From Verrucomicrobiota bacterium (GTDB lineage: Bacteria; Verrucomicrobiota; Verrucomicrobiia; Methylacidiphilales; UBA1321), in contig JABDHJ010000003.1 of assembly GCA_013285645.1 (NCBI GenBank), positions 1-64,000 of the forward strand: 64,000 nt of DNA, read 5' to 3'. The notes beneath the pieces were generated by a model. The model made no database searches. It had not been told where the DNA came from and saw only the letters and a list, made by a program, of their open reading frames with translations. Both the position numbers and the translations under genes were made by a program. Positions 6,339-51,705 of the stretch are shown here, piece by piece. The first letter of the stretch is position 1. Each line of letters begins with the position of its first letter.

Positions 6339-7625
6339 CTAGCGTCCGATGCTGGTGTAGGTGAAGCCGAGTGCGCGGAGTTCCTCGGGATTGAGGAGAT
6401 TGCGACCGTCGAAGAGGAGCGGACTGAGCATCTTCTTTTTCATGGCTTGCCAGGGGAGGGGCTTGAATTCGGTCCATTCGGTGAGGAGGAGGAGGGCGTC
6501 GGCGCCTTCGGCGACGTCTTCGGCTTTTTCGACCATTTTGGCCCCGGGGATAAGGAGTTGGGCCTTGTCCATGGCCTTGGGATCGTAGGCTTTTACCTCG
6601 GCGCCTTCGGCGATGAGTTGCTGGACGATGGCGATGGCGACGCTGCTGCGGACGTCATCGGTGTTGCCCTTGAAGGCGAGGCCGAGCACGCCGATTTTTT
6701 TGTGGCGCAGTACCCAGAGTGATTCGCGGACTTTCTTGAGGAAGCGTTGCGCTTGGTCAGCATTGATGCGCTCGACTTCCTCCAGCAGATGGAACTGGTA
6801 GCCGAGTTCGCGGGAGATGCGGATGAAGGCGGAGATGTCCTTGGGAAAGCAGGAGCCTCCGTAACCGATACCCGCGTTGAGGAAGGCGCGACCGATGCGC
6901 TTGTCGGCGCCCATGCCGTCGGCGACGCGCTCGATATTGGCGCCGGAGGCCTCGCAGATGGCGGCGACGGCGTTGATGTAGGAAATCTTGAGCGCGAGAA
7001 AGCTGTTGGCGGCGTGCTTGATCAACTCGGCGGAGTTGAGGTCGGTGACCATGATGGGCGCATTGAAGGGGGTGTAGATTTCCTTCATCGGTTCGATGGC
7101 GCGGTCCGAGGAGACGCCGACGACGATGCGGTCCGGCTTCATAAGATCCTCGACGGCGGAACCTTCGCGGAGGAATTCGGGATTGCTGACGACGTCGATA
7201 TCCGCGCTGGGGTTGTAGCGGCTGATGGTCTGGGCGACTTTTTCACCGGTCTTTACGGGTACGGTGCTTTTATCGACGATGATGCGGTATTCCTTGATGT
7301 GGACGGCGACCTCGCGGGCGACGCCTTCGACGAAGCTGAGGTCGACGCTGCCATCCGGTTGGGGCGGGGTGGGCACGGCGATGAAAATGACCTTGGAGGC
7401 TTCGACGGCATCGCCGATGGAGGTGGTGAAGGAGAGGCGTCCGGCGGCGACGTTCTTTTTGACGAGTTCTTCCAGGCCGGGTTCGTAGATGGGGATGTGG
7501 CCGTCCTGAAGGGAATGGACTTTTTTGAGATCGTTATCGACGCAGATGACTGTGTGGCCGACTTCGGCAAAACAGGCACCTGTGACCAATCCGACATAAC
7601 CCGATCCGACAATGGCTAGATTCAT
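6339..7625 (-). CDS. ugd: UDP-glucose 6-dehydrogenase
   Basis: A 428-residue enzyme that oxidises UDP-glucose to UDP-glucuronate with two NAD+, supplying precursors for capsule or LPS sugars. The N-terminal Rossmann motif is GSGYVGLVTGACFAEVGH; VPTPPQPDGSVDLS and STVPVKTGE follow; the catalytic Cys is in GYGGSCFPKD; the C-terminal half has GLAFKGNTDDVRSS. All key residues are present and length is normal. Repeats flank it on both sides, so it is probably its own transcription unit. Confidence 0.96.
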   Translation of the reverse strand: MNLAIVGSGYVGLVTGACFAEVGHTVICVDNDLKKVHSLQDGHIPIYEPGLEELVKKNVAAGRLSFTTSIGDAVEASKVIFIAVPTPPQPDGSVDLSFVEGVAREVAVHIKEYRIIVDKSTVPVKTGEKVAQTISRYNPSADIDVVSNPEFLREGSAVEDLMKPDRIVVGVSSDRAIEPMKEIYTPFNAPIMVTDLNSAELIKHAANSFLALKISYINAVAAICEASGANIERVADGMGADKRIGRAFLNAGIGYGGSCFPKDISAFIRISRELGYQFHLLEEVERINADQAQRFLKKVRESLWVLRHKKIGVLGLAFKGNTDDVRSSVAIAIVQQLIAEGAEVKAYDPKAMDKAQLLIPGAKMVEKAEDVAEGADALLLLTEWTEFKPLPWQAMKKKMLSPLLFDGRNLLNPEELRALGFTYTSIGR

Positions 7626-7892
7626 AAAGGGGCGTTCATTGTGCCACGACTGCGGCGGACGGCAAGACTGGAACCGGGGTTGGTCGCAACAGACGGCGTT
7701 TGCGCGGAGAACACGGAGGTCACGGAAAGAGAAGAGTCATAGGTCCAATGGGTCTGATGGGGCGGATAGGTCAGCAATGGAATTGCGCGGACAAGTGCGT
7801 TTCCAAACACGCACGCGTGAAGGAGTTTGGGAACGAGGGGAAACGGAACTGATCCTTCGACAAGCTCAGGATGACAGATTTCTAGAAGTGCC
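7626..7892. repeat. Intergenic repeat cluster (families G, A, B)
   Basis: No gene is seen here. Family A with the longer loop (aacacgcacgcgtg) is at 7773-7838. A family B unit, CTGATCCTTCGACAAGCTCA, is at about 7849-7877. A weak family G stretch (gcggagaacacggaggtc) lies near 7709. Confidence 0.7.
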
Positions 7893-10286
7893 TTACAGAT
7901 GCGGGCTGTGCAGTTCGAATTGGGGGAAGGCCTTGAGTGTGAGGGTGAAATAGATGGATTGGTTGTTTACGCCGTTGATTTCGCTGTCGGAGTAACTGAG
8001 GGCGAGCAGCCAGGAATCGAGATCCCGGTAAACGGTGTACTGTTGAAGCTGGAGGCGTCCGGTGGTGGCTTCGAATTGTTCCTGGGCTTCCATCTGCCAG
8101 TGTTCGTTCATGCGATAGAAAATATCCATGCTGACCGTGTTGCTGTCGACAAAGACGGAGCTGTGGTTGATGTAGTGATAACCGGCGGTGAGTTTCAAGG
8201 AGGGATCGGGCGACCAAGTGATGGAATTGTCCATTTGATTGTAGCTGTCGCCACTGATGTTGAGGGAACTGGCGGAGACGAGTTGGAGTTGCTGTGACGG
8301 ATTATAGGTGAGGGTGTTGAACAAATTGCTGAGAGTCGTGTTGGGGGTGGCGGCGCTGAAGTTGCGATCGAAATCGGCGTCGGCGTAGGTTTGCAGGGTC
8401 AACAGGTCGTAATTGATGCCATCGCGCTTGGTCTGGATTTTGTTCCAGACGCCGAAGCGGACGACGGCCTGTTTATCAATCGAGTCGATCGAGTTATATT
8501 CGGTCCAATCGATGGGCTGGAGTTGCGTTGAATAGAGCCGGTTGTCGAAGCCGCGGATGTTGTTGGGGGTGACGGTGGGTGAAGGCGCGTACTGCGCGTC
8601 GAAAAAGGGTTCGACCACGTGGCGAATGCCGTTGATGCCCAGATTGGGATCGGAGACGTTGAGCCAGGTGCGTGAAATCTTGAAGTCGCCCGACAACCCA
8701 ACATCGCCCGCGAGGCGCGTCACAGGATTGTGGATCGCATCGCTGGACTGGCCGTTGTCGTTGACGGTATCGTTGATGTCTTGATTGTTATCGGAATATT
8801 GAGTGAGCCGTCCACCGATGCGGGGCGTCAGTGAAAGAAAGTTGAAGTACTGCTTTGGGTAGGAGAATTCGTGGTAAGTGTCGTAGCGGTAGGCGTTGTA
8901 ATCGTTTTGCTGGTTGACGTTGTACCCATAGGTGGCGTTGGGGTGGTAATAGCTGTAGGCGGTTTGCGGTTGGGTGGCGTTGTTGGGGAAAGAATTGTAG
9001 ATATAGTTTTGCGGGTTTTGGAAATATTTGACGTCCGCAAATCTCATTTCCAGGTTATCCACGCTGTTCTGGCTGGTGTATTCGATGTCGGTGCCGAAGA
9101 TTTTCTGCTGCTTCACATCGCCTTCGAGCTGGGGCAGGCGTTCCGTCGTTTGAAAGAAGGGATTCACTTGGGGAGCGACGAGAACACCGATGGTGAAGTT
9201 GGGATTATACTGGTCGAGAGTGACGAAATTCGGCGGCTGATTTTCCTGCTGATATTCGCTTGGGAAAAAATCGCGGGTGACCCATGGATCGCTCCAGACA
9301 TTAATGTCGGCGATGGAGGAGAAGTCGTTGCCGAACTGGAGATGATGCTGATAGGCGATGCGGTATCGATTGTCGTAAGGCACGCCGTCGTAGGTGTAGG
9401 GATTGGACAGGTTGCCCTTGGAGACGGCGTTGGGCGTCTGCGGGTTGTTCATTGAGTAGAGATTGTCCTGGGCGTAATAGGTCTTGAGCATCATGTAGCT
9501 GTTGGTCGATGGAAAATACTGGACGTCGGTGCCGCCCGCGTAGCCGCGCTTTTCCCGCAGATCGAACTCGGTCGATCCGCGTATTTTATCACTGGCGACC
9601 CAGTTATAGGTGTTGTTGATGAAGGCGCCGAATTGACCGCTGTCGCCGATATTGAATTGATAGGTCGGGCGCGAGTCGGTGAGCGATTGCACGAAGACAG
9701 GGATGTAGGCGATGGGCACGCTGCCGATGAAGAGGAGCACGTTTTTAAGCACGACGACATCGTTGGGGCGGTACTCGATGGTGCCAGCTTCCATGTGGAA
9801 GCTGGGGTGTTCGCGATTATTGGTAGTGAACGTGGCGTTGGTGAGGTGATAGTGGTTGAACTCGGGCGTGGTGACTTTTTGGGCGGAGAGGAATTTGGGA
9901 TATTCCTCTCCCAGAAAGGAGGCCGAGGTCATCGCCTTGGTGTCGAGGTTGTAGGTCATCATGTCGCCGCGATAGAATCGACTGGCGCTGAAGATGCGGA
10001 CGTTTCCCGTGGCGGTGACGATTTTAGTGGAGCGATCGAGGATGGCGTGGTCGCAAAAAATGACGTCGCCGCGATACCGGATGACGACGTTATTGTCGGC
10101 CGTGGCGATCTGCCCGATGTAGCTGTTTTGCCCGTCGGCCTGAATGACGATGGCGTCGTCGCCGGGGTTGCTGGTGGGAGGTGTCGTGGAGACGGAGGGA
10201 AGATCCTGCGCCGACAGTGGGGCCACTCCGCTCAGGCAGATTACACAAAAGGCGGTAAAAAGTAAGGTAAGACGCGTAATCCTCAA
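7893..10286 (-). CDS. lptD: LPS-assembly outer-membrane protein LptD (OstA-like)
   Basis: An outer-membrane beta-barrel that, with LptE, inserts lipopolysaccharide into the outer leaflet. The N-terminal periplasmic part has the LptA/OstA beta-jellyroll pattern (VIQADGQNSYIGQIATADNN, VTATGNVRIFSASRFYRGD) and the rest is a Tyr/Asn-rich barrel. The open frame reaches 10382, but that extension (MFGNAL...) is encoded by a family A repeat. A TTG at 10286 starts directly before a good signal peptide (TRLTLLFTAFCVICLSG, cut near LSAQD), so I prefer it. About 797 residues. No lptE is recognisable nearby. Confidence 0.85.
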   Translation of the reverse strand: MRITRLTLLFTAFCVICLSGVAPLSAQDLPSVSTTPPTSNPGDDAIVIQADGQNSYIGQIATADNNVVIRYRGDVIFCDHAILDRSTKIVTATGNVRIFSASRFYRGDMMTYNLDTKAMTSASFLGEEYPKFLSAQKVTTPEFNHYHLTNATFTTNNREHPSFHMEAGTIEYRPNDVVVLKNVLLFIGSVPIAYIPVFVQSLTDSRPTYQFNIGDSGQFGAFINNTYNWVASDKIRGSTEFDLREKRGYAGGTDVQYFPSTNSYMMLKTYYAQDNLYSMNNPQTPNAVSKGNLSNPYTYDGVPYDNRYRIAYQHHLQFGNDFSSIADINVWSDPWVTRDFFPSEYQQENQPPNFVTLDQYNPNFTIGVLVAPQVNPFFQTTERLPQLEGDVKQQKIFGTDIEYTSQNSVDNLEMRFADVKYFQNPQNYIYNSFPNNATQPQTAYSYYHPNATYGYNVNQQNDYNAYRYDTYHEFSYPKQYFNFLSLTPRIGGRLTQYSDNNQDINDTVNDNGQSSDAIHNPVTRLAGDVGLSGDFKISRTWLNVSDPNLGINGIRHVVEPFFDAQYAPSPTVTPNNIRGFDNRLYSTQLQPIDWTEYNSIDSIDKQAVVRFGVWNKIQTKRDGINYDLLTLQTYADADFDRNFSAATPNTTLSNLFNTLTYNPSQQLQLVSASSLNISGDSYNQMDNSITWSPDPSLKLTAGYHYINHSSVFVDSNTVSMDIFYRMNEHWQMEAQEQFEATTGRLQLQQYTVYRDLDSWLLALSYSDSEINGVNNQSIYFTLTLKAFPQFELHSPHL

Positions 10287-40570: not shown

Positions 40571-40641
40571 GCGGGCGTAGTTCAATGGTAGAACGGTAGC
40601 CTTCCAAGCTACACACGAGGGTTCGATTCCCTCCGCCCGCT
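40571..40641 (+). tRNA. tRNA-Gly (anticodon TCC)
   Basis: A complete cloverleaf: acceptor GCGGGCG/CGCCCGC, D-stem GTTC/GAAC, anticodon stem GTAGC/GCTAC around CTTCCAA (anticodon TCC), T-stem GAGGG/CCCTC around TTCGATT, discriminator T. CCA is not encoded. Its 3' end is the left copy of the 50-bp repeat that bounds the integrated element. Confidence 0.96.
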
Positions 40642-40658
40642 CTCCTCTCATAGCTGAG
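40609..40658 (+). other. Attachment site, left (tRNA-Gly 3' end)
   Basis: 50 bases beginning CTACACACGAGGGTTCGATT and running past the tRNA end to CATAGCTGAG. It matches 44226-44275 at 47 of 50 positions. Beyond it both copies continue with a weaker likeness, each holding a small hairpin (CTGCCTCTGGAAAGGCAG here). Confidence 0.9.
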
Positions 40659-40940
40659 AGGGCTGTACCAAAATCGTACCAAACTGCCTCTGGAAAGGCA
40701 GTCTTTCACGGTTTCACGGAGGCGCAAGTAAGGCGCTCTCGGTATGGGGCTGACCTGCTGAAACCCAAGGTTGGGCACGTCGATCAGTTCGATATTCCGC
40801 ACGCTTCCACCTGGGCGGGTATCCTCTTGCCGGAGAGAACGGCGAATGTGGACAGGAACGGGCCGCCAGCCGCGCGAAGCGCGGCGGCGCCCGTTACTAG
40901 TCTATATCGTAATATCTCAATAAAGAGAAAAGCAGCCCTG

Positions 40941-41870
40941 ATGGATGAGCTGCGGGTGAATGTTGAGAACGTGATTCGCTTGGTGGGAATTGATCAGTGC
41001 GGCTTGGCCACCTTCACCACCCGTCGTAACTGCACCTTGGAAGAGTTCCAGAGGCTTTGGAATAGTTACGTGACCAATGTCCTCCGTCCTCGCTTCGGAA
41101 ATGCCATCACGGTCATTGAGGCGCAAATGCGGGGGGCTCCTCACGCCCATTGCTTCATGTACGTCGCGAAGGACGTTAGGACGGGCGCACGGTGGATCAG
41201 GAGAGGGAAGAGGTGGATGCTGGCGAAATACTCTGGCAACCCTGCGCTGCGCGAAATTCAGGCATTCCTGTATCAGACATGGAACTGTTATTGTCGGTCG
41301 CAACACGGCACGTCAAACGAGGTCATGGGCACGGCTCACTTTCTGCCAACCCGCCAGAATGCCGAGTCGATTGCGGTGTACCTGGCTAAGTATGTCGTTA
41401 AGGGGATCGAGCATCGCCCGCCTGAATGGCAGAACAAAAGTCTCGTCCGCTACATTGACCCACGGAAGCGGTTTCGGATGGTCTACCGGCGGCGGGCACG
41501 GTGCACGGTTCATGCGGTCCAGTCGCGGATCAAGCTACGCGAGTTCTGTTACTGGCGTCTGGGCCGTCAAACAACGGAGAAGTGGATTGCGGACGGCAAG
41601 AGCCCCCTCGATCTCCTGCGCGAGGTTATCGGGCCAGACTGGTATTGGAAAAATCGGGACAAGATCCACTCAATGCCAATACCTGAAAATACCGTTTCTC
41701 TCGGATTCGTCTTGCCGGAGAGGCACACGACTAGTCCCCTTCTTGATATAGGATGTTACCGAACTTCCAAGGGTGGCTGGTGTAAAACTACTTGGGCGGG
41801 GGAACCACCGGCTGCGTCATGGTGTATTTCGCCAGCTGTTGATTCTGAAGACTCAGATGATCCGTTTTAA
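40941..41870 (+). CDS. HUH-type rolling-circle replication initiator
   Basis: About 309 residues. Motif 1 is LATFTTRR (residues 22-29), motif 2 the metal-binding HUH H68-A-H70 in GAPHAHCFMYV, and motif 3 has Y147 and Y151 in YLAKYVVK, the nicking tyrosine context. This is the set seen in Rep proteins of small plasmids and filamentous or micro-type phages, which nick one strand to start rolling-circle copying. No helicase domain. ATG 40941 is used; the open frame from a TTG at 40827 adds a Pro/Ala-rich leader. Two Tyr are spaced by three residues, as in some superfamily I Reps. Confidence 0.82.
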   Translation: MDELRVNVENVIRLVGIDQCGLATFTTRRNCTLEEFQRLWNSYVTNVLRPRFGNAITVIEAQMRGAPHAHCFMYVAKDVRTGARWIRRGKRWMLAKYSGNPALREIQAFLYQTWNCYCRSQHGTSNEVMGTAHFLPTRQNAESIAVYLAKYVVKGIEHRPPEWQNKSLVRYIDPRKRFRMVYRRRARCTVHAVQSRIKLREFCYWRLGRQTTEKWIADGKSPLDLLREVIGPDWYWKNRDKIHSMPIPENTVSLGFVLPERHTTSPLLDIGCYRTSKGGWCKTTWAGEPPAASWCISPAVDSEDSDDPF

Positions 41871-41889
41871 GATCGCTCTTGAAATAATG

Positions 41890-42447
41890 CTAGCCATCTC
41901 GTTGGGCTGGGTCGGTCGGTGGTTCTGGTGGGAGAATTTTCAGTGGGGTAAACTGCATCTTCCTCATCGTATCTCTCTCCAACAAAACATCCTCGTTGGC
42001 GGCAATGTCACCAAACCCAAAAGCTAAGTGATGCTCCAAGCGGTCCTTGGGATTGGTGGCGATGTCGAGAAGTGGCCAATTCGCTGCCCATTCAGGGTAT
42101 TCTTCGGCAGGGCGCAGGTTGGGTTTTTCAGTAAAAAACGAGACATTACATGAAAAGTCGTAGCCGTTGTACAAGTCATAGACTTTGCTGCCTCGTGTGT
42201 AGAAGGTAACCCAGTTACCATGATACCGGTGCTCTATTTCGGCAACGATACCAAAGCCCCCACGTAGTACCCCATTCCATTTAAAAAGTTCTACGAGATG
42301 GAAGTGAAATGGTTCAGGGACTGTTCCGGGTGGGCAATCATCAAAGTAGCTCCATCCCCATCCATAAACAGGTTTACAAAAAAGGCTCTTACCAACGAAA
42401 GCTAGTGTTGATGACGCTAATTGTGATGGAAGGTACGCGGTCGTCAT
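41890..42447 (-). CDS. Element-borne protein of unknown function
   Basis: 185 residues, soluble, rich in aromatic residues (GWGWSYFDDCPPG, HRYHGNWVTFY, YDLYNGYDFSCNVSFF). No signal peptide, membrane helix or recognised motif. It lies on the strand opposite to rep and ends 20 bases from the rep stop. AT-richer than the chromosome. As cargo of a small mobile element it could act in defence or exclusion, but nothing in the sequence shows this. Confidence 0.6.
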   Translation of the reverse strand: MTTAYLPSQLASSTLAFVGKSLFCKPVYGWGWSYFDDCPPGTVPEPFHFHLVELFKWNGVLRGGFGIVAEIEHRYHGNWVTFYTRGSKVYDLYNGYDFSCNVSFFTEKPNLRPAEEYPEWAANWPLLDIATNPKDRLEHHLAFGFGDIAANEDVLLERDTMRKMQFTPLKILPPEPPTDPAQRDG

Positions 42448-42646
42448 CTCGTCATAAAAATATGGCTCGAGCAGCGGGCTAACAACTCTTTTATCTGTGT
42501 GGGTGATTTTCCGAACAACCGGAGCATGAGGGTGGAACCCTCATAAATGTAAAGCTCAGGGCCACTATGCTTAGCTGTGAGTTTGGGAGGCAAGAGCAAA
42601 TGGTGTTGTGCGGCCAAAGCTCGCCACCTTAAAAGTAATGCAGTAT
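42448..42646. other. Element gap without a recognised gene
   Basis: AT-rich, with a short hairpin GAGGGTGGAACCCTC at 42528-42542. This could hold the promoter of the minus-strand unknown gene or an origin for the Rep protein; no nick-site motif was recognised. Confidence 0.35.
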
Positions 42647-42880
42647 TCAGTCGCGAGTTGGATCATATGCCAGCGGATTGACAGAGTCACAAAAGAGGAT
42701 TAGTGTCTCCACATATTCGGGCCGACCAATATATTGGTGCAAAAGATCACAGGCTAAACCGTAATGGGGCCTGATTAAGAAGTCACCAAGTCGCATAGAG
42801 CCCACAAACAAAACGTCAGTCGTGGTTTCGTTTGTATCTGTGTCTCCTTTGGAGATGCCGGGCGGAGCCTCAAGTTTCAA
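42647..42880 (-). CDS. Possible small element protein
   Basis: An open frame of 77 residues (starts MKLEAPPGISKGD; contains VLFVGSMRLGDFLIRPHYG). It is divergent from the candidate excisionase, 12 bases away. The composition is protein-like but there is no family match I can name, and it could be chance. Confidence 0.3.
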   Translation of the reverse strand: MKLEAPPGISKGDTDTNETTTDVLFVGSMRLGDFLIRPHYGLACDLLHQYIGRPEYVETLILFCDSVNPLAYDPTRD

Positions 42881-42892
42881 GTTGGAGGTGGT

Positions 42893-43174
42893 ATGCGACG
42901 GAAATACTCAGACGAAGAGGTGCGGGCTCGTGCCAAGCAGGGCATGGCGCTCAATCTGCAAGAATTGGCAACGGCGACGGGGTACGGCTACTCAACAATT
43001 CGGACATGGCATGAAAATGGAATGCCGTTGTTGGATGGTCGGATCACGATGAAGGAGGCGCTCTCTTGGCGAAAACAATACGAGCGAACTAGGCAGTCGG
43101 GATCGCAATCGCAGACTCGTACTGTCTTACATCATCCACTCCTAACCTCTGGTAAATCCGGTGTACCAGCGTAG
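42893..43174 (+). CDS. Candidate excisionase (small helix-turn-helix protein)
   Basis: 93 residues. NLQELATATGYGYSTIRTWH is a MerR/Xis-type helix-turn-helix and a basic segment follows (SWRKQYERTR). Small winged-helix proteins of this size beside an integrase usually set the direction of recombination. Its 3' end overlaps the integrase 3' end by 86 bases, tail to tail, so the true stop could be functionally constrained by both. No RBS stands out apart from GGAGGTGGT 6 bases before the ATG, which is good. Confidence 0.65.
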   Translation: MRRKYSDEEVRARAKQGMALNLQELATATGYGYSTIRTWHENGMPLLDGRITMKEALSWRKQYERTRQSGSQSQTRTVLHHPLLTSGKSGVPA

Positions 43175-44132
43175 ACGAATGGTTGACCAGGCGCATGGCT
43201 GCGGACAACGGCACGCCGGCGCGGGCCAGTCTGGTGACAAAGGTGACTCGTGCACAGTGGAAGCAAAGCTCGGGGCGTTTCAATTCGTGTCGGAAGAAAC
43301 ACCACCAGTTCTTGCCAAGCATCGTCGGCGGATTGTCCAAGGTGTACTTGGCTCCCGAGTTCTTCAACTCCAGCAGCATTGGCTCCAGCGCGGTCGGCAT
43401 GGGTACGCTAAAGGCACGAGACTTTCCGCCCTTGGGATTGGCGAAGGTGATCGTCTTGCGTTTGAAGTCAACGTCACGGAGAGCAATCTGTGTCTCGGAC
43501 TGGCGGCATCCGGTGTGGATCGCAATTTCAAAGCTGATCTGCATCCAACGGTCGCGATTCTTCAACGCGGTCCTGATCTGGATGATGTCCTCGTCGGTCA
43601 ACTCGGGCTTCTCCTTGGATTCCTCCTTTGCCACGCCGAGCCGATCACAGGGGTTACCCTTGGCGTAACCAAGCCTGACCGCCTGACGCATGATGATACG
43701 GAGAACCTTCATGTCGTTCAGGGCGGTGTTGAGCTTCACCGTGCGGCCGCCCCGCTTGCGGTATTCGGTGCGCCATTTCAGATAACCCAGAGCATCCTGA
43801 TACGTCAGTTCGCTGGGGTTGGAAATGCGCCGCTCCCGCAAGTAAAGATGGAGCCAACTCCAACCGAGCATATAGCGGTCAAACGTGCGTGGTGTTTTAC
43901 AGTGACGTTTCAGGAAGGGGGCAACCCAGTCCTCCCAGCGTTCAATAGGCGTATGGGTGGCCTTCTCGTGCTCACGCGCGGCCATCTCTGCTTCGAGTGC
44001 GCGGGCCTGTTTGTGGTGGCTGGGATCGTCCTTCCTGAACTTCGTGCTTTGGAACTTCCGTTTGCCGGTCGAGGGTTCAATGAATTTGACCCACCAGTAA
44101 GACGAGTCCTTCCGATCGACGAGGGATGCCAT
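43089..44132 (-). CDS. int: Tyrosine-type site-specific integrase
   Basis: About 347 residues. An N-terminal SAM-like core-binding domain (residues ~70-170) precedes the catalytic domain with Arg in HTGCRQSETQIALRDV, Lys in NPKGGKSRAF, H-x-x-R as HCARVTFVTRL, the second His in MRLVNHSS and nucleophile Tyr in HRIYQRLG. All catalytic residues are present, so it should be active. It is 94 bases from the right attachment copy. The ATG at 44132 (MASLVDRKDSS) is preferred to 44168. Confidence 0.93.
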   Translation of the reverse strand: MASLVDRKDSSYWWVKFIEPSTGKRKFQSTKFRKDDPSHHKQARALEAEMAAREHEKATHTPIERWEDWVAPFLKRHCKTPRTFDRYMLGWSWLHLYLRERRISNPSELTYQDALGYLKWRTEYRKRGGRTVKLNTALNDMKVLRIIMRQAVRLGYAKGNPCDRLGVAKEESKEKPELTDEDIIQIRTALKNRDRWMQISFEIAIHTGCRQSETQIALRDVDFKRKTITFANPKGGKSRAFSVPMPTALEPMLLELKNSGAKYTLDNPPTMLGKNWWCFFRHELKRPELCFHCARVTFVTRLARAGVPLSAAMRLVNHSSTLVHRIYQRLGVDDVRQYESAIAIPTA

Positions 44133-44225
44133 GAAGCGAAACGTACCAAGCGTACCAAAATCAATCAAATCAAATATGACTCCACTCTGACAGACAACAC
44201 TTTATGACAATCAATAACAGCATAT

Positions 44226-44275
44226 CTACACACGAGGGTTCGATTTCATCCGCCCGCTCTCCTCTCATAACTGAG
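44226..44275 (+). other. Attachment site, right (displaced tRNA 3' copy)
   Basis: CTACACACGAGGGTTCGATT then TCATCCGCCCGCTCTCCTCT and CATAACTGAG. It differs from the left copy at three positions, two of them in the T-stem, where the copy is no longer under selection as a tRNA. A hairpin GCCCTCTGAAGGGC follows at 44291. Confidence 0.9.
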
Positions 44276-44311
44276 GAGTGTCCACCAAACGCCCTCTGAA
44301 GGGCATCCTCT

Positions 44312-44509
44312 TTGGAGGGCACACAGGAGTCGATTGCCTGCCCTATTTGTGAATGGGGCAACGTGGTCAATGACCTCTGCTCGTTCTGCGGTGCAACTTT
44401 TCTGTGGCGAGCGGATCACTCTCCCAAAGCAACTCACCTGCGTGCATTGGAGGTCGTCAAAAGCGCCAAGGTATGGGCTAAGCGGCGAGGTGCTTTTAGA
44501 GTGGCGTGA
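44312..44509 (+). CDS. Possible small zinc-ribbon protein
   Basis: 65 residues with two CXXC pairs (ACPICEWGNVVNDLCSFCGATF), the pattern of a zinc ribbon, then a basic helix. It begins at a TTG just past the right attachment site, and its last 14 bases overlap the endonuclease gene's 3' end. The start is weak; the Cys spacing is the only support. Confidence 0.4.
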   Translation: MEGTQESIACPICEWGNVVNDLCSFCGATFLWRADHSPKATHLRALEVVKSAKVWAKRRGAFRVA

Positions 44510-45362
44510 ACAATGTCGCCGATGAAATCTTCGACTGAAGAGCTTTGATAATCTGGTCGAGCTCAACCCGCGCTTCGGCCTGTAATGCTAGGCACTGCGC
44601 AATGCCAGCGGTATCCGTGCTCAATCGAGACTGAAGGGTCAACCGATACGCATTGTCCGGCTGTTTAGACATGCGGTAAGCATGAAAATGCATGGAATCT
44701 CCGATCGTCGGGGGATTACTCAAATGCCCGAAATTAAATTCCTTGGTCATGTATGCGAGGAGTTTGTCCTGCGTTACGAGCACAAGCTTCTTATTGACGT
44801 GTTCGAAGGTTTGAATTTTATGGTGCATCTGGACGAGAATAGTCTTCGCCGTCATCTTCCAATTCATCCCGTAGGATTTGTCAGATTCCTCGGCATCGTC
44901 GTTTCTTAACACCCCAAGTTCCTTCAATAGCCGTTGCCTTTCTGGCCAAACTGTACCTGTGGTATCAAGAGTCTGTAGCTCTATGCCAACGAAGTCCCTA
45001 ACTCGTCCCTCTCTCGCCGAAACGAGAAAGTAATCCACGCTGCCACCCGGAATTGTGACCTCGGACACGATATGGAGGTCGTTACCGGGTTCGTGTGTCG
45101 TGAGGAGGTGCAGGCAATCGATAAAAATCTGTCGTCGATCAATTAGGCGTGTCGGACAGATGATGACAGGCTCTTTGGGGTTTCCGTAAAGAACGGTGCA
45201 GGTGCCAATTGAAATATCAGGATTGCTTTTTCTGACCTTGTAACAGCGTTTCCCAAGGAAAGGGCATTCCTGGTGTTGGACTACAAGATTCCAATTCTGA
45301 TCGGGCTTATCAGAGGAGTGCCCAAAAATCTCGACTACATTGCTCATACAAGGCTTCTGCAT
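44496..45362 (-). CDS. NotI-like type II restriction endonuclease
   Basis: 288 residues. The NotI-type iron-binding Cys4 set appears as C33, C40, C55 and C69 (CPFLGKRC ... GTCTVLYG ... IICP). A PD-(D/E)XK core follows: VDYFLVS with the Asp, then FVGIELQT with E-x-Q. NotI-family enzymes cut long GC-rich sites; the site here is not predictable. Its start overlaps the methyltransferase 3' end by 19 bases (an ATG at 45347 is also possible), so the two are co-expressed. AT-rich relative to the chromosome. Confidence 0.82.
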   Translation of the reverse strand: MQKPCMSNVVEIFGHSSDKPDQNWNLVVQHQECPFLGKRCYKVRKSNPDISIGTCTVLYGNPKEPVIICPTRLIDRRQIFIDCLHLLTTHEPGNDLHIVSEVTIPGGSVDYFLVSAREGRVRDFVGIELQTLDTTGTVWPERQRLLKELGVLRNDDAEESDKSYGMNWKMTAKTILVQMHHKIQTFEHVNKKLVLVTQDKLLAYMTKEFNFGHLSNPPTIGDSMHFHAYRMSKQPDNAYRLTLQSRLSTDTAGIAQCLALQAEARVELDQIIKALQSKISSATLFTPL

Positions 45363-46477
45363 CTTTCTTCGGCAAAATCGAGATACTGCCTTGAAAGATC
45401 GATTCCGATAGATTTTCGTCCTAAATTACGCGCCGCCAAAAGCGTGGTCCCTGTTCCGCAGAAGGGGTCGAATACAATTCCCTCGTTTGGGCAGGTTGCG
45501 AGTAGGGGGAGTCGGCAAAGATCCTCCGGATATGGAGCAAAATGGTATTCGCGGTTCTGGGTGTCTTCAGGAATGATGTCCCAGACATCAGTAGGCTTGC
45601 TGCCATTTGGATGATAGCGCAGAAAATAAAAACCCTTGTCGCGAAGCTCCTTGGCGCGACCGGAAAGTCTTTCGCTATCCGAATGTGTGGCTCGCTGCTG
45701 GGAACGAATTATCATCCTGAAATCGGAAACCTTCCCGGCAACGATATCGGAGAGCATGCTGTTAAGCTCCTGCAATGCGTTAACTTTCTGTTCTGGGCTG
45801 AGATCGGTCGAGAGTTCGATTTGTCTCTTGTAGCGAATGCCTGAGACGCCTGTTGCAGAGATTACCGAACCATTGACGATTTTGGCTTCACGCGGTTTCG
45901 AGCGTATTGCGTCTGCATCGTAGTAGTAATTTTTGGCCTGCTTAACAAAATGGAAAATATTCTCATGAACATTGCCGAGGCGATCTTTGGAGTTATCCAT
46001 TCCACTTTTAACCTTATTCCAAATTACGCTGTTTCTAAGTACCCAGCCTTGTCTGTCTGTAAGCTCGAACGCTAACCGCCACGGTATTCCGAGGAGTCCC
46101 TTATTCGCGTAGCTGTCGCCGATGTTCAGCCAGAATGAACCGGTGGGCTTAAGTACCCGCTTCAACTCTAAAAATACCAAGGCGAGGTCTTTGACGAAAT
46201 CTTTGTAGTCCGATTCGTTGCCTATTCCGCCGCTTTCATATTCACGTTTTCCCCAATAAGGAGGCGAGGTCATTACACAGTCGATTGAGTCGTTCGGAAA
46301 TTCTTTGAGCGTGCTAAGCGCATCCCCGTGTAGAAGCAATGGCTGCAGGGATGTGCCAAGCGTGTATCTCTCGACGGCGTAACGATAGGACTTGGTGACA
46401 ATATTAGGTGTTGCTGCGCTATCGAAAGTAATCTCCCTCAGGTCTTCGGGGCATTTAGATGTCTGTGCGGGTGTCAC
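45344..46477 (-). CDS. DNA methyltransferase (beta-type, N4-cytosine or N6-adenine)
   Basis: 377 residues. Catalytic motif IV TSPPYW is at 70-75 and the SAM-binding motif I FCGTGTT lies near residue 340, the beta-class order. TSPPYW is usual for N4-cytosine enzymes but also occurs in N6-adenine ones. GSFWLNIGDSYANKG and FHFVKQAKNYYYDADAIR are typical of the class. It protects the host from the endonuclease encoded directly downstream. Confidence 0.92.
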   Translation of the reverse strand: MTPAQTSKCPEDLREITFDSAATPNIVTKSYRYAVERYTLGTSLQPLLLHGDALSTLKEFPNDSIDCVMTSPPYWGKREYESGGIGNESDYKDFVKDLALVFLELKRVLKPTGSFWLNIGDSYANKGLLGIPWRLAFELTDRQGWVLRNSVIWNKVKSGMDNSKDRLGNVHENIFHFVKQAKNYYYDADAIRSKPREAKIVNGSVISATGVSGIRYKRQIELSTDLSPEQKVNALQELNSMLSDIVAGKVSDFRMIIRSQQRATHSDSERLSGRAKELRDKGFYFLRYHPNGSKPTDVWDIIPEDTQNREYHFAPYPEDLCRLPLLATCPNEGIVFDPFCGTGTTLLAARNLGRKSIGIDLSRQYLDFAEERCRSLV

Positions 46478-46580: not shown

Positions 46581-47156
46581 TTACCTGCTAAGGTTGAAAC
46601 GTCCGTATTTTTCTTTGAATGCCTCATGATGAGGTGAGGCCTCATCAGAAAGCGCCAGATGAGCCGTCCTTCTTTTAAGCAAATTGCCTTTAAGAAATAA
46701 TTTTTGGCATTGATTACGAAGGCGTTTAGAGATCGACGTGCAGAAATAGGCGTTTCCCTTGACCACCTCGCGAACAGCTTCGGCCAGGGCTGGTGTCGAA
46801 GATTGCTTAATCAGATATCCGGATGCGCCAAAGATCACGGCTTGCTGAAGGTATTCGGGATCGGGGTGCGCGGAAAGAATGAGTACTTTCGCTGCGGGGA
46901 AAGCCTTGAGAATTTGCCTCGTTGCTTCCAGTCCGTTCAGGAACGGCATGGCGATGTCCATGATAATAGCCTCGGGACGAAGGCCCATGCTTAGCCGTAC
47001 CGCTTCACACCCGTTCTTTGCCTCCCCAATGACCTCAATGTCTCCGTCTGATTCAATCAATAATTTTAAGGACTTGCGGAAGCCCGCATGATCCTCGGCC
47101 AAGAGAACCGTAATTTGCTTGATGGGTAAGGCAGCGATGAGTCCTTGTCTTTTCAT
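46581..47156 (-). CDS. NarL-type response regulator lacking its HTH domain
   Basis: 191 residues. The receiver domain is whole: VLLAEDHAGF with the acidic pair, phospho-acceptor Asp in EAIIMDIAMPFLNG, LILSAH (switch) and LIKQSS (Lys). After the usual linker (SISKRLRNQCQ ... LLKRRTAHL) a LuxR-type HTH is expected, but the sequence becomes SDEASPHHEAFKEKYGRF and stops. Either a deletion removed the HTH or it now works by protein contact only. It is divergent from the first kinase gene. Confidence 0.82.
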   Translation of the reverse strand: MKRQGLIAALPIKQITVLLAEDHAGFRKSLKLLIESDGDIEVIGEAKNGCEAVRLSMGLRPEAIIMDIAMPFLNGLEATRQILKAFPAAKVLILSAHPDPEYLQQAVIFGASGYLIKQSSTPALAEAVREVVKGNAYFCTSISKRLRNQCQKLFLKGNLLKRRTAHLALSDEASPHHEAFKEKYGRFNLSR

Positions 47157-47504
47157 TTTATGTAAATGGGTGTGTTAAAAAAAAAATCCGAGCCGCACTG
47201 CCCAATCACGAACTTAACTTTAAGCCGAGAGCCGCAATAAGAACGAGATCAGATGCTTATCGCGAAGTAACATAGGGCTGAATATCATCCGGAGGATATG
47301 GGGTGTTTACCCCATTGGAGGGAATGACCGGACATCGATAGATTATTGGCGAAGGATCAAATAACGAAAACTCAACAAGATAACGACGAAACAAATCCCT
47401 ATTGTTTTTAACTACAGCCCCCATGATTGTCCGAAAGCACTTGCGAAAACGTCAAGATGCAGGGGCAAGGTCACCGGGGACCGATCCTGATAAGAGGTCT
47501 TACC
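47157..47504. promoter_or_regulatory. Divergent control region between response regulator and kinase
   Basis: 348 bases without a gene. A run of A residues is at 47178-47188. The palindrome ATGGGGTGTTTACCCCAT is at 47298-47315. A ribosome-binding stretch AAGAGG precedes the kinase ATG by about 7 bases. No clear sigma-70 boxes could be fixed. Confidence 0.5.
47298..47315. promoter_or_regulatory. Palindrome ATGGGGT-N4-ACCCCAT, copy 1
   Basis: Perfect 7-base arms around GTTT. The only other copy noticed in the window is at 52406-52423, before the kai operon. A shared operator for a dimeric regulator is likely. Confidence 0.6.
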
Positions 47505-48926
47505 ATGCCGAAAAAGCCCAGCACTTCTCCCAATGCCAACGAAATGCGCCGTCGTGCCGAGGCCCGGATTAAAGGACGGCATACGCATCTCACTCCACCT
47601 CGATCAGAAGCCGATACGACGCGACTTCTTCACGAATTGCAGGTCCACCAAATCGAACTGGAGATGCAGAACGCCGAGCTCCAGGAAGCCAGGGACAAGT
47701 CGGAGACTCTGCTGGAAACGTATACCGACCTCTACGATTTCGCACCAATCGGCTACTTCTCGGTTGATGAACAAGGTCTGATCCTGGAGGTGAATCTGGC
47801 CGGGGCCGCCTTGCTTGGCATCGAACGGTCCCGATTAATCAACCAACGCCTGCAAGGTTTTGTCGATCCGCCAAGTCGAATAGCTTTCCTCACCTTCTTT
47901 AAAAAAATATTTGCAGGCCCTGGAAAACAGATATGTCAGATGCCGCTTCTGAATGAGCGCAGCATGCCTTTTTGGGCGGATCTTCAGGCTGCCTCCGCGA
48001 GTTCCCAACGGGGCAGGCGAAATTGGTGTCGATTGGCAGTCTCGGACGTTACCGCGCTCAAGCAGGCGGAGGAAGTACGACGAAGCCTGGAAGGAATGGC
48101 CGCGTCGAACAGGGAGTTAAAACTGGAAATTGTTCAAAGGCGGAAAGCGGAGATGGACCTCAAGAAGAGCGAGGCACACTACGCTCAATTGTTTGAACAG
48201 TCGCTAAACATGCAGGAACAGTTGCGGCACCTGTCCCGCCAACTTCTCCTGACCCAGGAGGAAGAGCGCAAGCGGATCAGCCGTGAGTTGCATGATGAAA
48301 TCGTCCAGACCCTGGTGGGTATCAATGTGCATCTTGCATCATTGACCGTGGTAGGTTCGCTCAATCTTAAGGATCTCAGGAAAAAAATCGCCCGGACACA
48401 ACGTCTTGTCGAAAAATCGGTGACCATCGTTCATCGGTTTGCCCGTGAATTGCGCCCGACGGTGCTGGATGACCTGGGGTTGATACCCGCCCTCGAAGCC
48501 TTTATCAAAGATTTTATAAAAAGGACGAAAATAAAGGTTCACTTTAAGGCCTATGCCGAGGTGGAACAACTGAGCAGTACCCAGCGGATTGTGCTTTATC
48601 GCGTGGCCCAGTCAGCCCTGGCCAATGTCCACAAACATGCTCATGCCAGCGAGGCGAAAGTGAGCATTCGCAAGCTCCAGGGCACCATTCGCCTGGAAAT
48701 CCATGACAACGGCAAATCCTTTGAAATGGAACGCGTCATGTTTGCCAAAAGGCACAAACGATTGGGACTGCTTGGTTCACGGGAACGGGTGGAAATGGTC
48801 GGCGGAAAATTTCGAGTTGAATCCGCGCCGGGCCAAGGCACCACCATCAGCGCGGAGATCCCGATCAGAGACGAAGGACCCAAAGACCAATCGAAGACCT
48901 CTCGTAAAACCAAGCGCGTTGGGTAG
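47505..48926 (+). CDS. PAS-domain sensor histidine kinase, NarX type
   Basis: About 473 residues, cytoplasmic. N-terminal coiled coil (ELQVHQIELEMQNAELQEARD), PAS domain (APIGYFSVDEQGLILEVNLA, ~95-215), second coiled coil, HisKA_3 with phospho-acceptor His in ISRELHDEIVQTLVG, and an ATPase domain (NVHKHAHASEAKVSI, HDNGKSF, RLGLLGSRERVEMVGG). No membrane helix, so it senses an internal signal. ATG 47505 has AAGAGG upstream; an earlier frame start at 47427 is less likely. The divergent response regulator is its natural partner. Confidence 0.9.
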   Translation: MPKKPSTSPNANEMRRRAEARIKGRHTHLTPPRSEADTTRLLHELQVHQIELEMQNAELQEARDKSETLLETYTDLYDFAPIGYFSVDEQGLILEVNLAGAALLGIERSRLINQRLQGFVDPPSRIAFLTFFKKIFAGPGKQICQMPLLNERSMPFWADLQAASASSQRGRRNWCRLAVSDVTALKQAEEVRRSLEGMAASNRELKLEIVQRRKAEMDLKKSEAHYAQLFEQSLNMQEQLRHLSRQLLLTQEEERKRISRELHDEIVQTLVGINVHLASLTVVGSLNLKDLRKKIARTQRLVEKSVTIVHRFARELRPTVLDDLGLIPALEAFIKDFIKRTKIKVHFKAYAEVEQLSSTQRIVLYRVAQSALANVHKHAHASEAKVSIRKLQGTIRLEIHDNGKSFEMERVMFAKRHKRLGLLGSRERVEMVGGKFRVESAPGQGTTISAEIPIRDEGPKDQSKTSRKTKRVG

Positions 48927-48999
48927 ACTATGGACCAGTCACTCCTGGTAGGACTTCAATTTACTAGGATTTAGATATAAAGCCGACGGCTTCTGAGTC

Positions 49000-51705
49000 A
49001 TGAAAAAAACAACTTCGCATGGCGGTCGAAAGCACCAACGTCCCGCTGCCGTTCGCAAAACCACGGCCAGTCCGCTTGTGAAAGCCGCGGGCCATTCAAG
49101 CCGTTCCTTTCCCGTCGTCGGTCTTGGCGCTTCCGCCGGGGGGCTGGAGGCCTTGGAGCAATTCCTTTCGCATGTACCCAAAGGGTGTGGTCTCGGCTTT
49201 GTCGTCGTCCAGCACCTGGACCCGACCCACAAGGGCATCCTGGTGGAATTGCTGCAACGCAATACCGCCATGCCGGTCGTCCAGATCAAGGACCGGATAA
49301 AAATCGAGCCCGACCATGTTTATGTCATACCGCCCAACAAAGACCTCTCCATTCTGCATGGCGTCCTGCATCTGCTCGACCCGGCCGCGCCGCGTGGTCT
49401 GCGTCTGCCGATCGATTTCTTTTTCCGTTCACTAGCTGACGACCGGCACGAACAAAGCATAGGAGTCGTTCTCTCAGGCATGGGCTCGGATGGCACGCTG
49501 GGCCTGCGGGCCATCAAGGAAAAAGCCGGGGCGGTCTTTGTCCAGGCCCCAGCCTCGGCCAAATTCGACAGCATGCCCCGGATGGCCATCGATGCCGGAC
49601 TGGCCGACGTAATCGCTTCGGCGGAGGAATTGCCCGCCAAGATCATCGATTACCTCAAGCACGTCCCGCTGCTTGTACGGCCTGAGCAGGATATGGCCGA
49701 GAAGGACCAGAGTGCGCTGGAAAAGGTTGTCATCCTGCTGCGTGGACAGAGCGGTCATGATTTTTCCCTCTATAAAAAAAGTACCATCCATCGCCGGATT
49801 GAACGGCGCATGGGCCTCCACCAGATCACCAGGATTGTTGATTATGTGCGGTATTTGCGGGAAAACCCCCAGGAATCGGACCTCCTCTTTAAGGAATTGC
49901 TGATCGGGGTCACCAGCTTCTTCCGCGATCCTTTGGTGTGGGAGCAATTGAAAGACAAGATCATCCCAAAATTTTTGGCAACTCGTCTCCAAGGAGGTGT
50001 GCTGAGAGCCTGGACCGCTGGGTGCTCGACGGGGGAAGAGGCTTATTCTCTTGCCATCGTTTTCAAAGAGGCGCTGGAGCGGGTCAAACCCGCCAAAAAC
50101 TTTTCTCTTCAGATTTTTGCCACTGATTTGGACAAGGACGCCATCGACAAGGCGCGGGCAGGTGTCTATCCGACCAACATCAGTGCGGACGTTTCGGAGG
50201 AACGGCTGCGCCATTTTTTCGTTAAGAATGAGACCGGCGGTTACTCCGTAAAAAAGGAAATCCGCGAGATGGTCATCTTTGCGCCGCAAAATCTCGTCAT
50301 GCATCCGCCCTTCACCAAGCTCGATTTCGTGACTTGTCGAAACCTACTCATCTATCTTGACGCGGAGTTGCAGAAGAAACTCATGCCGCTCTTTCACTAC
50401 AGCCTGAATGCCGGCGGAATTCTGGTTCTGGGTAGCGCTGAGACCATCGGCACGGCGACGGACCTCTTTGCGCCGATGGAGGGCAAGTCGCGGATTTATC
50501 GTCGCCTGGATACTTCGCGTCAGGCAAATCTCGTTGAGTTTCCCTCGGCGTTTACCCGCACCCGATTGGACGCTGGCGCGGCTTCATCCACTCCACAGGG
50601 AACAACGCCCCCAGCCCCCAACCTCCAGTCACTCGCGGACCAGTTGCTCCTTCAGCGCTATGCTCCGGCGGCGGTGCTCGTCACGAACGAAGGCGATATT
50701 CTTTATGTCAGCGGGAAAACGGGGAAATACCTTGAACCCGCCGCGGGTAAAGCCAACTGGAACCTCTTTGCCATGTCCCGTGAGGGATTGGGCAACGCGC
50801 TGAGCGAAGCCTTCCACAAGGCGGTCCGGCAAAAAATTGTTGTTGTCCTCAAGAATGTGAAGGTAGGGACCAACGGAGGCACGCAGATCGTGGAGATCAC
50901 TGTCCAGCCCGTGACCAGCCCGGGAGCGCTGCGGGGAATGGTGATGGTTGTCTTTACGGACGCAGCGAAGCCGTCCACCGTCAAAGCACCGGGCTCATCC
51001 AAACGGGCAACGATGCACAATGCCCGGGTCGCCGCGATGGCGCAGGAACTCCAGCAGGTGCACGGGGATTTACAGGCCACCCGCGATGAAATGCAGACCT
51101 CGCAGGAAGAGCTCAAATCGACCAATGAGGAATTGCAGTCCATGAACGAGGAACTTCAGTCCACCAACGAAGAGCTGACCACCTCCAAGGAAGAGATGCA
51201 GTCGATGAACGAGGAACTGCAAACGGTCAACCACGAGTTGCAGGCCAAGGTGGACGAATTGTCGCGCACCAGCAACGACATGAAGAACCTACTCAACAGC
51301 ACCGACATTGCCACCCTCTTCCTGGATGAGGCACTTCTCGTGCGGCGTTTTACCACTCAAACTGCCAAGATCATCAAACTTATCCCCGGTGATGTTGGGC
51401 GTCCCATCACGGACATTGTTACTTCTTTAGACTATCCCGAGATGGCCGATGACGCGCAGCAGGTTTTGAAGACGCTGATTTTTATCGAGAAACAGGTCTC
51501 AGCTCGTGATGGACACTGGTTCACTGTGCGCATCATGCCTTACCGTACGCAGGAAAACCGGATCGACGGCGTTGTGATTACGTTCGCTGATATCACCGTG
51601 GCGAAAAATCTGGAGACGGCGTTGCGAAAGGCCCAGTCTGACCTGGAAAAGCGCTTTACGAGTCAAACCGCAGAATTGGGCAAGGCCCGGAAGAAAACGC
51701 GATGA
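49000..51705 (+). CDS. CheB-CheR fusion with coiled coil and PAS domain
   Basis: 901 residues. CheB-type methylesterase first (~38-225; catalytic S45 in GASAGG, H72 in QHLDP, D164 in SGMGSDGT), then CheR methyltransferase (~240-500; TSFFRDPLVWEQL, AGCSTGEEAYS, CRNLLIYLD), a long coiled coil of EEL repeats (~680-760) and a PAS domain (~765-880). Unlike many relatives it has no kinase domain at the end. It has no CheB receiver domain either. No methyl-accepting chemotaxis protein or flagellar gene is near, so it probably serves stress signalling rather than motility. Confidence 0.9.
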   Translation: MKKTTSHGGRKHQRPAAVRKTTASPLVKAAGHSSRSFPVVGLGASAGGLEALEQFLSHVPKGCGLGFVVVQHLDPTHKGILVELLQRNTAMPVVQIKDRIKIEPDHVYVIPPNKDLSILHGVLHLLDPAAPRGLRLPIDFFFRSLADDRHEQSIGVVLSGMGSDGTLGLRAIKEKAGAVFVQAPASAKFDSMPRMAIDAGLADVIASAEELPAKIIDYLKHVPLLVRPEQDMAEKDQSALEKVVILLRGQSGHDFSLYKKSTIHRRIERRMGLHQITRIVDYVRYLRENPQESDLLFKELLIGVTSFFRDPLVWEQLKDKIIPKFLATRLQGGVLRAWTAGCSTGEEAYSLAIVFKEALERVKPAKNFSLQIFATDLDKDAIDKARAGVYPTNISADVSEERLRHFFVKNETGGYSVKKEIREMVIFAPQNLVMHPPFTKLDFVTCRNLLIYLDAELQKKLMPLFHYSLNAGGILVLGSAETIGTATDLFAPMEGKSRIYRRLDTSRQANLVEFPSAFTRTRLDAGAASSTPQGTTPPAPNLQSLADQLLLQRYAPAAVLVTNEGDILYVSGKTGKYLEPAAGKANWNLFAMSREGLGNALSEAFHKAVRQKIVVVLKNVKVGTNGGTQIVEITVQPVTSPGALRGMVMVVFTDAAKPSTVKAPGSSKRATMHNARVAAMAQELQQVHGDLQATRDEMQTSQEELKSTNEELQSMNEELQSTNEELTTSKEEMQSMNEELQTVNHELQAKVDELSRTSNDMKNLLNSTDIATLFLDEALLVRRFTTQTAKIIKLIPGDVGRPITDIVTSLDYPEMADDAQQVLKTLIFIEKQVSARDGHWFTVRIMPYRTQENRIDGVVITFADITVAKNLETALRKAQSDLEKRFTSQTAELGKARKKTR

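Follow-up and report, generated by a model that had tools for sequence, protein, structure and literature searches.

A pair of adjacent genes in the window (the whole 64,000-nt stretch of DNA analyzed here) very probably constitutes a complete type II restriction-modification (RM) operon of the NotI family, acquired horizontally and located at a tRNA-Gly locus that accumulates mobile and defense genes. The operon encodes a restriction endonuclease (R) and an amino-DNA methyltransferase (M), labeled by PADLOC as REase_II and MTase_II, respectively, and judging by its sequence it is real and probably functional. The coordinates of both genes, their predicted functional sites and the neighboring tRNA and attachment (att) repeats are collected in Table 1.

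Table 1. Coordinates of the RM genes, their predicted functional sites and the adjacent tRNA-Gly locus
Feature	Position	Strand	Basis or remark
NotI-family type II restriction endonuclease (R), 283 aa	44496..45347	-	Pfam NotI above cut-off, homolog-conserved start, conserved Cys and active-site residues
Amino-DNA methyltransferase (M), 377 aa, GTG start	45344..46477	-	Pfam N6_N4_Mtase, 167 bits; TSPPY[WY]G in aligned homologs
4-nt ATGA shared by the M stop and the R start	45344..45347	-	Probable translational coupling
Cys28...Cys64 coding region, predicted Fe-Cys4 site	45156..45266	-	Invariant in 81 sequences; same four Cys align in L104
D105...E123-x-Q125 coding region, catalytic strands	44973..45035	-	Homolog conservation and AlphaFold model
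tRNA-Gly(TCC) gene anchoring the variable locus	40571..40642	+	
Left attachment repeat, overlaps 3' part of tRNA-Gly	40609..40672	+	
Right attachment repeat, copy of tRNA-Gly 3' end	44226..44289	+	64 nt, 86% identical to 40609-40672

Gene organization and relationship of the endonuclease to NotI

Both open reading frames (ORFs) were found on the minus strand at the positions given in the preliminary description of this DNA, which also reported that they overlap by 19 bases. The longest ORF of R spans 44496-45362 and its first possible ATG is at 45362, while the start conserved among the homologs corresponds to residue 6 of this ORF, at 45347. In nearly all homologous loci the R start lies within an ATGA (sometimes GTGA) sequence shared with the stop codon of M, hence 45347, rather than the ATG at 45362, is the likely start, and the overlap has to be corrected to 4 nt. 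M adjoins R in nearly all homologous loci and the M-R order with the ATGA is retained in most of them; the overlap probably provides translational coupling.

The comparison of R with Pfam PF12183 (NotI) yielded a modest match (27.6 bits, with a cut-off of 22), and its homologs score 26.8-35.6 bits. The scan of bacterial and archaeal genomes identified 172 relatives of R, of which the best 80 (54-84% identity) were retained. The preliminary description had predicted a Cys4 iron site and a PD-(D/E)XK core typical of NotI, and held that iron-binding cysteines not conserved in the closest homologs would refute it; all four of them (C28, C35, C50 and C64, numbered from the 45347 start) turned out to be 100% conserved in the 81-sequence alignment, in agreement with the predicted metal site. 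The predicted active site D105...E123-x-Q125 corresponds to the E-x-Q form found in NotI, with E123-x-Q125 invariant and D105 invariant in 18 sequences and at least 90% conserved in 69 sequences. Neither R nor the profile of an 18-member family matched any chain in the PDB directly. However, the profile comparison of the R family with L104, an unambiguous NotI-family member (138.7 bits against Pfam NotI), reported a relationship with a probability of 98.5% and with all four Cys residues aligned, and an intermediate family member, L101, matches the NotI structure (3bvq) over the active-site strands. The Pfam match, the profile match to L104, the intermediate that reaches 3bvq/3c25, and the invariant Cys4 and D...E-x-Q residues jointly bear out the assignment of the pair to the NotI family. 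L100, L101 and L104 themselves form a second, plasmid-borne clade of the NotI family, whose partners are C5 cytosine methyltransferases and not amino-methyltransferases.

The AlphaFold model of R calculated from 69 sequences has high scores (pLDDT 90, pTM 0.89); it replaced an initial model based on 18 sequences, which was poor (pLDDT 59). The model comprises a helix, strands 90-99, 102-112 (with D105) and 115-124 (with E123), a long helix 163-183 and a strand 187-193, with D105 placed on the second strand and E123-x-Q125 at the end of the third. In our reading, this alpha-beta-beta-beta-alpha-beta order would be the one expected of the PD-(D/E)XK core. The Foldseek search of the PDB with this confident model did not retrieve NotI (3bvq) and returned only meaningless matches, with rmsd of about 20 A.

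NotI from Nocardia otitidiscaviarum (PDB 3bvq/3c25) shares with R the Pfam family, the E-x-Q motif followed by T-x-D, and the four cysteines near the N-terminus, but the divergence is too great for a direct sequence or fold match, and R is about 100 aa shorter. In NotI a Gln residue is reported to replace the catalytic Lys (PMC4081073), and a mononuclear Fe-Cys4 center is reported to be present (PMC4176176). NotI-family enzymes encoded on the plasmids pSY2 and pESA2 and on a Sedimenticola plasmid belong to the same Pfam family and likewise follow the M gene; they differ in having an m5C methyltransferase as the partner and exhibit only about 26-28% identity to R.

Methyltransferase, specificity and predicted mode of action

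M is a member of the N6_N4_Mtase family (see Table 1) with the beta-type order of motifs, in which TSPPYWG, the motif IV, lies close to the N-terminus and DPFCGTGTT close to the C-terminus. Motifs of the TSPPY type are typical of N4-cytosine methyltransferases, which suggests, but does not prove, that M makes N4-methylcytosine; the best solved relatives of M include both m6A and m4C enzymes.

The closest named system is the pair from the plasmid pBspH9 of Acinetobacter sp. NEB 394 (L099), with the same M-R order, an R that is 58% identical to the one described here, and an annotation as NotI family; its locus tags are HUK62_RS18830/18835. BspHI and the other BspH systems owe their names to this strain, formerly classified as Bacillus species H (PMC8259958). 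In the literature searched we did not find which BspH system (BspHI, BspHII or neither) is encoded by the pBspH9 pair, nor a specificity for any member of this clade, nor a characterized NotI-family relative with a methylome. We take BspHI (T^CATGA) to be a candidate only, and for the pBspH9 pair only. Palindrome avoidance, analyzed in about 1 Mb of host DNA, gave no guidance on specificity; TCATGA was seen 234 times versus 265 expected (rank 42/64).

We propose that M, encoded by the first gene, would mark the host sites by methylation, and that R would be translated from the 4-nt overlap so as to follow the methylase. R would fold as a PD-(D/E)XK nuclease with D105, E123 and Q125 as the putative catalytic residues, while the predicted mononuclear Fe-Cys4 domain (C28, C35, C50, C64) would serve DNA recognition. 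The cut in unmodified incoming DNA would then be made at a palindromic site and, as in the case of NotI, the ends would probably carry 4-nt 5' overhangs.

Horizontal acquisition and the tRNA-Gly locus

R was found in only one of 60 close relatives, namely the genome described here, and in 3 of the 388 members of the phylum sample, the other two copies being 59% and 52% identical to it. Among the best 80 of the 172 relatives, the nearest homologs come from metagenome-assembled genomes (MAGs) of Acidobacteriaceae (84%) and Rhodospirillales (80%), both with record titles that refer to a bog. The maximum-likelihood tree places the copy from the window in a set supported at 96/95 together with sequences from Acidobacteriota, Myxococcota and Pseudomonadota, and the phylum labels on the tree require 28 changes, compared to the minimum of 16. 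Single placements are weak since bins may hold stray contigs, which does not weaken the overall horizontal pattern. The distance matrices of R and M are correlated (Mantel r=0.84, a value that none of 1000 permutations reached), and this correlation together with the adjacency of the genes indicates that R and M are co-inherited. Between R and its nearest homolog (L003) dN is about 0.11 with dS saturated, which indicates purifying selection on R. By its distribution and sequence relationships the pair is strongly horizontal in character, and it would have come to its present place at the tRNA-Gly locus from outside the phylum.

The tRNA-Gly(TCC) gene also anchors a 3.6-kb integrated element (40609-44289), bounded by the 64-nt att repeats and encoding a rolling-circle replication initiator (RepSA/G2P-like) and a tyrosine integrase; it contains also a small DNA-binding ORF (42893-43174) with a weak match to the terminase small subunit and an ORF for a protein of 185 aa with no known function (41890-42447). 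The stop codon of R is located 207 nt past the right repeat, and therefore the RM pair lies outside the element. The genes had been described as beginning 220 bases past this site; as they are transcribed toward it, what is found there is the R 3' end, so the genes end, rather than begin, near the att repeat. The GC content of R and M (0.489) is indeed lower than that of the window (0.564) and of the left flank (0.577), as the preliminary description stated for the chromosome; the AT-richness continues, however, into the adjoining response-regulator gene (0.493), and because this neighbor is equally AT-rich, base composition alone is weak evidence of foreignness. Over the first 30 kb of the window (1-64000), most GC skew values are strongly positive (about 0.1-0.3); from about 40 kb onward the skew is close to zero.

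The suggestion that the tRNA locus is a hotspot of defense genes was examined by comparison with five sister genomes in which this locus is resolved (G002, G003, G005, G006 and G007; a small sample consisting of MAGs). To the left of the tRNA, synteny with G002, G003 and G005 covers both an AttH-like gene and ABC genes; with G006 it covers the AttH-like gene only. The contents to the right vary: G002 (L093:4400-6420) contains an ApeA-like HEPN gene, for which HEPN_Apea and ApeA_NTD1 both score over cut-off, alongside a truncated C5 methyltransferase; in G003 (L094:2566-3102) there is a fragment that aligns at 60.6 bits with the N-terminal part of Avs3a; G005 has an AAA_25 ATPase resembling RepA of an element, and G006 has Rhs/YD-repeat genes; in G007 the tRNA has other neighbors, none of them defense-like. 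Thus G002, G003, G005 and the genome described here differ downstream of tRNA-Gly(TCC), and the view that the same site holds differing defense or mobile genes in relatives is supported, for a small sample. On its far side, the RM pair adjoins a block of response regulator, histidine kinase and CheB-CheR genes (46581-51705), a unit conserved in the genus and located elsewhere in the relatives. This block is beside tRNA-Gly in none of the relative stretches examined, some of which are interrupted by contig ends, and for this reason we regard the tRNA-Gly locus as a synteny break as well.

Mobility of the RM pair

The loci of the homologous pairs were searched for tight repeats, defined as direct repeats that flank the pair at a distance of no more than 250 nt on either side, with pseudo-cassettes of the same length from the same loci as a control. 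Such repeats, of 57-267 nt, were found in 8 of 74 loci (L007, L009, L012, L014, L015, L031, L049 and L080) versus 1 of 710 pseudo-cassettes (Fisher p 4e-8); within 3.5 kb, direct repeats were found in 19/76 cases and inverted ones in 5/76, and L042 exhibits 1.36-kb direct repeats on both sides, about 2 kb from the pair. In L007, L012, L015 and L049 each repeat partially copies one end of a neighboring gene (recN-like, ORF6N, prephenate dehydratase (pheA-like) and UvrD-like helicase genes), which remains complete on one side. In L009 from Zoogloeaceae (6709-9105) the pair is located between tRNA-Ser and an 86% identical copy of its 3' part, in a segment of 2.3 kb without an integrase inside. 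In L031 (3499-6192) and L080 (244-3613) the repeats beside the pair recur in the locus, with GTTAGC near one end; to our eye they resemble integron attC sites, possibly representing a gene-cassette form of the RM pair. We also considered a general association of homologous pairs with tRNA genes, but a tRNA was found within 2 kb in only 5 of 60 loci, not clearly above chance (about 3 expected by our rough estimate). The pair is also present on plasmids of Klebsiella, Enterobacter, Serratia and Acinetobacter, as well as on an E. coli plasmid of 3,625 bp (L116:1-3625) with only repL, M and R annotated, and the R gene was found in three contigs from viral collections. The pair is unusually broad in its occurrence, and its relatives bear a clear footprint of recombinase-free mobility.

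It is about an even question whether the pair moves in such a self-contained manner, by insertion with a long target duplication or by illegitimate recombination, and reached a locus that was already permissive without involvement of the integrase element. The excess of tightly flanked pairs, the origin of the repeats as partial copies of an adjacent gene or tRNA-Ser, and the homology of the window pair to L003/L004, which stops near the gene ends, are consistent with this possibility, and precedents exist: the insertion of RM systems into integrons, between IS copies, or accompanied by long and variable duplications of the target is described in PMC3031569 and in works cited there (Nobusato 2000; Furuta 2010 for the duplications, which flank homologs of the pair studied here as well). 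Around the copy in the window no flanking direct repeat or target duplication is visible. We speculate further, and with less confidence, that the pair could effectively be a minimal mobile element, about 2 kb long and devoid of a recombinase, that has reached about 17 phylum-level groups via long target duplications, tRNA and integron-like capture and tiny plasmids, with its own endonuclease perhaps aiding insertion by DNA breaks.

It appears rather unlikely that the pair is instead cargo, carried either by the neighboring 3.6-kb element or by a tandem element that occupied this tRNA earlier and whose outer att site has decayed. The short distance to the right att repeat and the arrangement of the pair in L009 would fit this scenario, but the pair is outside both att repeats, a search between 44300 and 52000 for a third copy of the tRNA-Gly 3' end gave none, and as the far side of the pair lacks an att repeat there is no sign of tRNA-targeted entry of the pair itself. 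Finally, it is highly improbable that the genes represent a decayed or solitary methylation system devoid of restriction activity: although a MAG is the sole source of the sequence and the activity is predicted, both ORFs are of full length, with the catalytic and Cys residues intact and with a strong purifying signal.

A horizontally acquired NotI-family operon thus remains our preferred reading, and for this genome the guess of a defense hotspot at tRNA-Gly has become a supported one. More generally, the small and rarely studied group of Fe-Cys4 enzymes of the NotI family is widened to a widespread clade, a possible source of new restriction specificities, which supplies many natural insertion sites for studying the movement of RM genes without a recombinase.
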